Shown one piece after another: positions 34,401 through 37,400 of a stretch of 64,000 bases of DNA; position 1 is the first letter of the stretch, and each line of letters opens with the position of its first letter. A program made the position numbers and the translations under genes. The notes under the pieces are model-generated. The model did no database searches. It saw only the letters and a program-made list of their open reading frames with translations, and was not told where the DNA came from. Source of the stretch: Bugula neritina (taxonomy: Eukaryota > Bryozoa > Gymnolaemata > Cheilostomatida > Bugulidae); assembly GCA_964035545.1 (NCBI GenBank), contig OZ037765.1, positions 26,982,504 through 27,046,503 of the forward strand, read 5' to 3'.

Positions 34401-37400
34401 TATTATTTTAAAGTTATATTAATAGTGCTTTTTGATTTACATATTATGAATATTTTAATTTATTGTTTCTTCATAAAATAATTGTCTTACTTATTTCTGT
34501 CAAAACTCAAGACAGTTTGTTTCTATAATATACAGACAAAGAGAAGTAAAGGCTCCACCTGTGAAACCAAAACCTCGTGTTGTAAACAAACAGACAAGTC
34601 AAACAGGCAGTGCAAATCCTCAGAACAATTATGACCCATCATCACTGTTTACCCCGGCTTACCTAGAGATGCTGAAGGTGTGTGATTTAAAGCATGTTAG
34701 TTATAATATCTTAATTTATCAAATGGTTGAATCAATAAGTGCTGTATGTAGTTATCACTAGTTTTTATAAAATATCATAAAATATGAGTCCGTGGTGATA
34801 CTTAATGATATACTTTACTAGCACAAAGTTCAGAATATATATATATATATATATATATATATATATATATATATATATATATATATATATATATATATAT
34901 ATATATATATATATATATATATATATATATATACCTCAATCTGTGGACAGCAGCTGTTTCGGGGTTTGTCCCCTCATCAGCACAGAACAGAGTACCATGG
35001 CCCACACCTTGGCAATAGTAGAAACTTATGTTTCTACTAAAGCATATTTAAAAGGTGTGTAAACTCAAGCCAGAGAGCTCAAGTGACTCTAGGGGTCACC
35101 TAGGAGTCACGAGCCTTGCAAAATGCTAGCAGCTTGAGTTTGTGACCATGGTGAGAGAGCTCAATCACTGAATGTCATATATATATATATATATATATAT
35201 ATATATATATATATATATATATATATATATATATATATATATATATATATATATATATATATATACACACATATATATAATACATGCACCAAAAGGTGTG
35301 GTTGTATGACTTTCTATATTTTCAGAATCAACAAGAACAGCTTATTCAACCCTCTGAAATGTTTCCAGCTGAAAAGGTGGGCTTCGGTCCAGATAAAGTG
35401 CCCCATGATGATGTAGCAGCATATATTCTGCAACCAGATGGCACAATGGCAGCTCTCAGGTACAGCTCTAACCAATCAAATTGCAGCATCTTTCTTCATC
35501 ACTGTTTGTAGGAAGTAGGATGTGTAATACATGTGGCAGACATTGTTCTGTTGGTTATTTATGCAAATGTTTATTACAAACTGTTTACTATACAATTATA
35601 ATCATATCTAATTTAACTTGTTTTATAGACCCAATCAGATGCAGAGTAACAGGTACTGAGTTGTGTTCCATCACTATGTGCTTTTGAAAACAGAATTAAT
35701 TGCAAACAAATTAAAAATTAAACAGCTTTCTTCAACATCTTACTAATTTTATTCAAAATTAAGAGGTTTCACTTTTTTGAATCAATAATGTCAGTTTGCT
35801 GACTGCAACTTATTCTGTTTTCAGAGCACATGTTTTATAACATTAGAAGCTTGACTGACTGCTCTGCACATATTATTATCAAATGTAATTATAACAGTAA
35901 TTTTCCCGGAACAATATGCACAATATGCGGCCAGTGATTGCCTTGTGCCTAATTTATAAAGCTATCAAACAGATAGTCATCTTATAGTCTAACTTTATTG
36001 GCTGATTGATTGGATTGTATTTCACAGAACTAGTAGTAGCTGCTGCAACAGTTTCATGATTATAATTTGCTATACTTTTTTTCTATTAACAATGTTCTTA
36101 TTGGGTGTTTCAAGCAATAATCAGGTCTTATTTGAAACTGCAAAATTAAAGAAATTTATTTCTCAAATTTGATGTATTGCACTAACAAACATTTGCTTTT
36201 TTTTAGACGCTGTAAAACATGCGTCTTTAGAATTATCTCCTTTCTGGTTAATAGTTTCACAGTTGCATTCTGCAACTGCAAATATACTTTCAGCATCAAC
36301 TCCAAAGGCTATTAACATAAATTCGCATAAGTTGTAACTATTGTTAGTTAGTGAGATACATCAAAATTCAGGTGTAGATATGCTATACACTCTTAGCACA
36401 TAACTATACAGTGGAGTGACTATATACTGTTATATATTAATGCATTATGCCCACTACATACAGTATTTCATCATTATTTTCAGACTTTTTGTGAGTTGTC
36501 AGGAAAATAAAAAATGGCGCTATTTTTCAAACGCTGCAATTAAATTAGTTTTCAACCATCTACTTTGAAAAATCAAGTAACTTATTACCCAAGCAGTAAA
36601 TTTATAGAACATTTATTTTGTAAGTAACATTATTCAAATGGCTGATTTTATTATTAAACACTTTAATTAACCATGCATTGCAATTTGGAAAGATGGTTTT
36701 GGAGTAAAAGCATAAATAGATGAGTATGTATTGGGCATAGCTGAACTGCACAGAAAAAGAAAAATAATTTCTCCTATCATAATAATTATGCATGTTTGGT
36801 TTTTTTTTCTACTTCTTCCTCTTGCATTGCAGAATCCCTAATTTTAATCTTTTTTCTATGAACATTTTGGGTGAACCCAAATTATAGTGTTTACATTCAG
36901 TGAAAATAATTACCGTATTATTATTTAAGATAATTGAGTCCAAATAAGATAATCTGTAAGTGTATAAATAAACTTACATTTGTTTAAAGTTTCCACCCCT
37001 ATGGTGACAAGGGCTTTTTTAAATAGGCTAAGGATTGTGCCTCTCACCATACTGGCAACATAGCTTAAGGTCTTTCAAATTAAACCACAGGCAAGGGTGG
37101 CCATATGCCTTTCTTGCCATCACCAAATAATCTGTTGGGATTCAAACCTACTTGATTAAAACTTTCCCTTTCATGCTAGGCTAGACTAAGGCTGTTCCTG
37201 TCTTAAGTAACTTATAAATAACTTGAAAACAATATAGTATACTGATATTGGCTTAATATAATATTTCTATTTATAATTGATAATATATTTAGCCAAACTG
37301 CAAGCACTTTGATAAGTTATCTTTTTTTATCTCTCAAGGTCACTTGGAAATTCCACTTATCATTTTAACAATTCCTATTTATTTCAAACTGGATGGCCAG

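Follow-up and report, generated by a model that had tools for sequence, protein, structure and literature searches.

Does the hammerhead motif on the minus strand of this Bugula neritina locus belong to a mobile RNA, and if so, which enzyme copies that RNA into the genome, and from what form of template? The question was examined in the window, the whole 64,000-nt stretch of DNA that was analysed (positions are counted from its first letter), and across the B. neritina genome (215.8 Mb, 295 contigs). The original prediction had placed a complete type I ribozyme inside an intron and read it as a sign of a mobile, possibly circular RNA.

A type I hammerhead in a probable host intron

Examined base by base, the minus strand at 34940-34986 agreed with a complete type I hammerhead ribozyme (HHR). 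All the elements below were read from the sequence, and the core as a whole is also backed by a descriptor and by 499 genomic core matches.

34940-34986, minus strand: type I HHR core
34986-34981, minus strand: stem I, 5' strand, TCTGTG
34980-34974, minus strand: core box CTGATGA
34973-34970 and 34964-34961, minus strand: stem II, GGGG/CCCC, 4 bp, loop ACAAA
34960-34957, minus strand: core box GAAA
34956-34948, minus strand: stem III, CAG/CTG, 3 bp, 3-nt loop
34947 and 34946, minus strand: T, then C17, of the GTC cleavage triplet
Between 34946 and 34945, minus strand: predicted HHR cut, after C17
34945-34940, minus strand: stem I, 3' strand, CACAGA, inner 6 bp
34935-34992, minus strand: HHR extended by the outer part of stem I, CTC/GAG; internal loop TGT/TT (sequence; minimum-energy fold in part)

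The proposed outer extension of stem I held up, since CTC (34992-34990) is able to pair with GAG (34937-34935) on the minus strand and does so in the minimum-energy fold. Stem III, which had been called tiny, consists of 3 bp plus A15.1-U16.1. It is short, as claimed, but it is not of the kind found in Penelope-like elements (PLEs), which share the type I architecture and, according to the accessible part of PMC7761336, have no real helix III.

The type I descriptor (CTGANGA, stem II of at least 3 bp, GAAA, stem III of at least 2 bp, TH, and stem I of at least 5 bp) found one site in the 64-kb window and none in 300 dinucleotide shuffles. Chance agreement, judged very unlikely beforehand, is therefore unlikely for the full descriptor, though a looser three-word HHR pattern was common by chance, with at least one match in 21/100 shuffles. 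In an Rfam scan of the window HHR, no family reached its gathering score, and the best hammerhead models, RAGATH-1-hammerhead (19.1 bits, gathering 56.3) and Hammerhead_3 (14.9 bits, gathering 48.5), were both sub-threshold. The minimum-energy fold of the isolated region kept the outer stem I, five of the six inner stem I pairs and stem II. With tertiary contacts ignored, ViennaRNA gave an alternative fold without stem III that was 2.4 kcal/mol better than the catalytic fold; it retained stem II and most of stem I, and its core was partly paired with one stem III strand.

The lack of an Rfam match above threshold would fit a motif that matches by chance or is no more than a dead relic, an explanation to which we give very little credence. 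Besides the empty shuffles, it has to face the copies in the genome: a 35-base HHR core with at most 3 mismatches matched 499 times (247 forward, 252 reverse), and its reversed control 0 times. Among 98 complete HHR copies, 67 were identical over 53 positions, an identity that youth could also explain and that makes the copies uninformative for within-family covariation. The sub-threshold score thus spoke against the prediction and the matching copies spoke for it; on the strength of these 499 copies, the HHR was accepted despite the Rfam scores. At the sequence level, the hammerhead observation is confirmed as described.

The surroundings of the ribozyme were laid out as follows.

34678-35325, plus strand: inferred intron with the insertion (splice-like borders, open frames on both sides)
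34835-34933, no strand assigned: (AT)n tract flanking the retrozyme's 3' end (repeat search)
34934-35176, minus strand: retrozyme copy, 243 bp of a 272-bp unit (between the AT tracts)
35177-35279, no strand assigned: (AT)n tract flanking the retrozyme's 5' end (repeat search)

With borders set by eye, the intron at 34678-35325 would lie between plus-strand exons at 34536-34677 and 35326-35459. Its borders are AG and GT, both flanking frames are open, and the junction falls on a codon boundary on either side, so that the sequence supports the predicted intronic location well. With respect to the intron-bearing gene the ribozyme lies antisense; a PDZ exon upstream of the intron on the strand of the gene (31763-31963) may be part of that gene. 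Nearly one unit is present in the window, as a single copy, and where the missing 29-bp spacer would stand there is an AT tract. Long (AT)n tracts without a retrozyme were also seen at window 40278-40472 and 57466-57536, and these are possible empty targets. Other features of the window were an Axin-like exon at 49929-50921 on the minus strand (RGS domain, 48.7 bits; tankyrase-binding match sub-threshold), a SIKE-family exon at 57668-58165 on the plus strand (48.9 bits), and a 13-bp tandem repeat at 11839-12208 (28.5 copies, 95% match) in a stop-free frame of 163 codons.

A retrozyme family across the genome

When the 243 bp between the AT tracts served as query, the best 40 of 699 first-look candidates yielded 78 matches. 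Full-length copies among these matches were 96-100% identical, and several were spaced 272 bp apart; this tandem unit is made up of the 243 bp and a 29-bp spacer seen between tandem units. The unit has a GC content of 0.456, and its longest Met-started frame is 21 aa. Arrays reach five units, many loci hold about one unit or less, and the copies, most of which lie in AT tracts, are scattered over contigs C1-C9 and C107. Young copies differed by 0.37% within arrays (7 pairs) vs 0.54% between arrays (84 pairs), and all copies by a mean of 2.7% in 8 within-array pairs (one of them 19%) vs 6.1% in 292 between-array pairs, comparisons with too few pairs to decide. At one locus (L069:1492-2208; C5:9.208 Mb), two short retrozyme pieces stood head to head beside a longer array, both beginning at unit 179 with their 3' ends outward.

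A genome search with the pattern CTGATGAGH..CGAAAC matched 7 places vs 1 in the control, which argues against a second large family with exactly this core; CTGAAGA-type cores lie outside the pattern. A 28-base core pattern had no exact match in viral contigs.

Type I hammerheads in short repeats, as here, are familiar from the schistosome Sm-alpha and newt satellite 2 repeats. The closest likeness was to the metazoan non-LTR retrozymes of Cervera & de la Pena (2020), which, in the accessible part of PMC7229834, make circular RNA and have units of 150-450 bp. Both have a type I HHR (with a canonical complete core here), short tandem units in many copies (272 bp and 499 core copies here), a GC content below 50%, no long frame, and a PLE in the same genome (named from motifs here). 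The B. neritina element differs in sequence, and both the fixed position of its 3' end and its (AT)n target have been worked out. Plant LTR retrozymes are likewise HHR-bearing non-autonomous retroelements with circular RNA described in the literature, but they have a type III HHR, an LTR, a PBS, a PPT and a length of about 700 bp (PMC7229834, same part). In the B. neritina sequence no LTR, primer binding site or polypurine tract was noticed. Judged by its sequence, the window element is a member of the metazoan non-LTR retrozyme family, with a sequence of its own.

Insertion junctions and the RNA template

The 91 fetched loci (L001-L091) were merged to 69 regions, which yielded 80 retrozyme segments. 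The regions came from the matches of the 243-bp search, where long copies are favoured, and from the best core matches first; they are a subset of the 499 copies and a modest sample that leans to young ones. The 3' end fell at unit 240-250 in 72/80 segments and exactly at 246 in 61, where the unit reads GAGGTAT, or GAGATAT in an older-looking subfamily, and then runs into AT. The remaining 8 segments, with 3' ends at unit 54, 93, 104, 178, 215, 232, 235 and 237, were dropped, and removal of 3 segmental duplicates reduced the 72 to 69. This fixed 3' end lies about 15 nt past the predicted HHR cut, at the foot of stem I, and in the window it corresponds to one further feature.

34931-34934, minus strand: inferred reverse-transcription start, unit 243-246, GTAT (fixed 3' end of the family)

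Alternating AT was found on the 3' side of 60 of the 69 segments, on the 5' side of 43 and on both sides of 40, against a background of 0.8% of window 20-mers; 26/69 segments had no alternating AT tract on the 5' side. The 72 segments were 33 to 1375 bp long. Their 5' ends were spread round the unit, 64/72 of them where the sequence has 1-4 nt of microhomology with AT, and outside the positions that complete one turn of the unit the breakpoint rate per site rose from 0.06 (no match) to 1.5 (at least 3 matching bases, few sites). Any target-site duplication longer than 4 bp would be masked within the AT tracts flanking the retrozyme.

One fixed and one variable end are the mark of target-primed reverse transcription. 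The junctions show a fixed initiation site for the family, and the combination of a fixed 3' end with a variable 5' end points to target-primed reverse transcription that starts at a fixed site in the RNA. No such fixed site is given for retrozymes in the accessible parts of PMC7229834 and PMC7761336, and among the literature matches listed, as far as titles and the beginnings of abstracts go, there was no report of retrozyme junctions in AT repeats or of a stop after one turn.

The same junctions bear on whether the family could have spread without reverse transcription, as a satellite multiplied by unequal crossing-over or through circular DNA. Near-identical tandem units would suit such a satellite, as would the apparent local duplications at C3:19.44 Mb and C8:2.72 Mb, but it fits poorly with one end being fixed and the other variable and with copies dispersed over ten contigs, mostly in AT tracts, and we regard it as highly improbable. 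With hundreds of dispersed, often tandem copies, fixed-3'/variable-5' junctions and the likeness to retrozymes, the claim of a mobile RNA element is supported. The reading as a mobile, possibly circular RNA thus appears right in kind, with circularity and self-cleavage expected by analogy with known retrozymes.

We turned to the 5' ends for the form of the template. As many as 18/69 lay in unit 239-250, the 12 positions that complete one turn, where 6.0 were expected after correction for AT microhomology. The Poisson P is about 6e-5 and is not to be taken at face value, since the 12 positions were chosen after the data had been seen. The 15 fullest 12-base windows of 5' ends all overlapped the one-turn positions, and in the subset of regions reached via the ribozyme pattern, 13/52 5' ends were located there (duplicates kept). 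A circular template would explain this excess, since on it the enzyme reaches its own start after a single turn.

An HHR-cut linear monomer was rejected as the template, as just 1/72 segments started in unit 229-235. Another candidate is a linear multimeric transcript, in which case no circle would be needed and the tandem units would mirror tandem RNA. Arrays of up to 1375 bp do exist, and a studied PLE inserted in vitro mainly from unprocessed RNA, with HHR cleavage being unnecessary (PMC11167929). However, 5' ends should not pile up at one turn if the template is a linear multimer, and 18/69 were observed there, vs 6.0 expected, at positions chosen post hoc; we consider this template rather unlikely.

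A probable Penelope-like element with the same target

Searched with the Pfam GIY-YIG family, the genome yielded a single match, which suggested that it has no PLE; this view was wrong, as locus L025 carries an element with PLE motifs. The reverse-transcriptase motif R-Y-[VI]-D-D (as in RYIDDTF), which we take to be of PLE type, was looked for genome-wide with a degenerate DNA pattern. This matched 51 places, vs 22 for the reversed control, and 48 of these places share their first 11 bases and are variants of one sequence. At L025, a frame of 352 aa, open at the cut end of the locus, contains WVRYIDDTF and a GIY-YIG-like end whose residues, read by eye, are VYKI..YVG..R...R..EH..E..N. Pfam gave this frame 29.2 bits for RVT_1 (cut-off 29.6) and no match to the GIY-YIG endonuclease, and its PDB matches, which are reverse transcriptases or RNA-directed DNA polymerases, were weak (best E 0.09). 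On the motifs read by eye, the L025 element is named a PLE.

The frame stops about 400 bp short of the end of GCTAGCTCGTAAAG, which is followed by ATATATTTATAT and (AT)n. The PLE terminus with AT was found at 181 genomic places (at most 3 mismatches) and the bare terminus at 232 (at most 2 mismatches), counts obtained with different query lengths and mismatch limits, whose sets need not nest. All of the fetched PLE 3' ends (6/6) run into AT. There are apparently two 3' termini, 22 bases apart: among the 42 matches listed (best 40 of 419 candidates), 7 stop at query 190 and 31 reach 210-212, and at L052 both PLE copies end at the first terminus, followed by AT. The 3' untranslated part (L025:1789-2000, minus strand) contains a hammerhead-like minimal fold with CTGAAGA, GAAA, stem I, and stem II around GGGTAC/GTACCC, in which Rfam found no hammerhead match. 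The PLE of this genome has in common with the retrozyme an (AT)n target and, upstream of its 3' end, a hammerhead-like fold; it differs in that PLEs encode a reverse transcriptase and an endonuclease. We also observed that PLE copies often stand head to head with their 3' ends outward (7 outward pairs and 1 inward, by eye, in the 42 listed matches). Outward pairs occur in L024, L052 and L063 as well, as if both target strands had primed copying, and at L063 the border of the hammerhead-like stem I is where the two PLE halves join.

PLE and retrozyme were sometimes neighbours. At L025 a retrozyme lies beyond the AT tract of the PLE, tail to tail with it, and at L097 a retrozyme lies downstream of a broken PLE copy with one AT-rich tract between them. 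Among the listed places of both elements, 4/90 retrozyme loci had one of 144 PLE ends within 1.5 kb, compared with a random mean of 0.26 and a largest value of 3 in 2000 placements, a proximity that the shared (AT)n target could produce by itself. The two sequences had nothing in common beyond chance 9-mers, so that the link runs through target, place and habit and not through homology.

LINEs or PLEs are named as possible retrozyme movers in a 2024 review (PMC11722881, accessible part), and the corresponding text of PMC7229834 proposes a primed circle copied into tandem cDNA, with PLEs as strong candidates. According to the available portion of PMC7761336, retrozyme repeats lack conserved motifs that could point to the partner. 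An ordinary LINE as the mover, considered possible in PMC7229834 (accessible part), would be in keeping with the many RVT_1 matches (best 150 of 2124 first-look candidates scored), including several groups with LINE-like frames of about 930-1100 aa. None of four such LINE-type groups had a long (AT)n after the frame, whereas the PLE has one; their tails were (AAAC)n, AGAGGTAAT followed by a TAGTAATAC-like run, a GAAGTATC-like run, and none in the fetched piece, as seen in one copy per group and on the 3' side only, with the LINE-type label taken from frame length. We therefore think a LINE improbable, at about the level of the linear multimer. LINE-type groups at L093-L095 also differ among themselves in their simple-repeat tails, e.g. 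(AAAC)n. As for PLEs, a studied protein cut or preferred AT-rich DNA and started copying inside the RNA at two nearby sites (PMC11167929). Taken together, the PLE is probably the best candidate machinery for the retrozyme; this rests on the shared (AT)n target, which any (AT)n-seeking enzyme would give.

The model we favour, and believe likely, is that a circular RNA, processed by the retrozyme's own HHR, serves as the template that a PLE enzyme copies into (AT)n, with circularity, cleavage and partner drawn from relatives and context. Tandem copies would be transcribed and the RNA cut by the HHR to 272-nt monomers, which a host ligase would close into circles, both steps as suggested by published relatives. 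The presumed PLE protein would nick a tract of (AT)n and begin to reverse-transcribe the circle at the fixed site, some 15 nt beyond the HHR cut. From there it would copy round the circle, often stopping at one full turn and sometimes continuing to give tandem units, and the 5' end would mostly join the AT tract where 1-4 nt match. Initiation at the foot of HHR stem I suggests that the HHR may help place the enzyme.

The novelty lies in the footprint of integration, with its fixed 3' end and with an (AT)n target that a PLE shares. In the accessible parts of PMC7229834 and PMC7761336, both the enzyme that moves retrozymes and the circle as template remain hypotheses. The footprint makes the question of the mobilising enzyme testable. 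Both enzyme and template come within reach of testing in this genome, where the family is young, its junctions are clean, initiation is mainly at one site, the 5' ends show a measurable excess at one turn, and a PLE has the same unusual target. A more specific proposal, which we put forward only tentatively and hold to be somewhat less than even in probability, is that the PLE enzyme, working on a covalently closed hammerhead RNA, starts target-primed copying at the foot of stem I, makes one round and tends to halt at its own starting point. If true, this would make circular RNA the natural template of retrotransposition, would name the enzyme that moves animal retrozymes, and would mean that the hammerhead has a second function, that of docking the enzyme.
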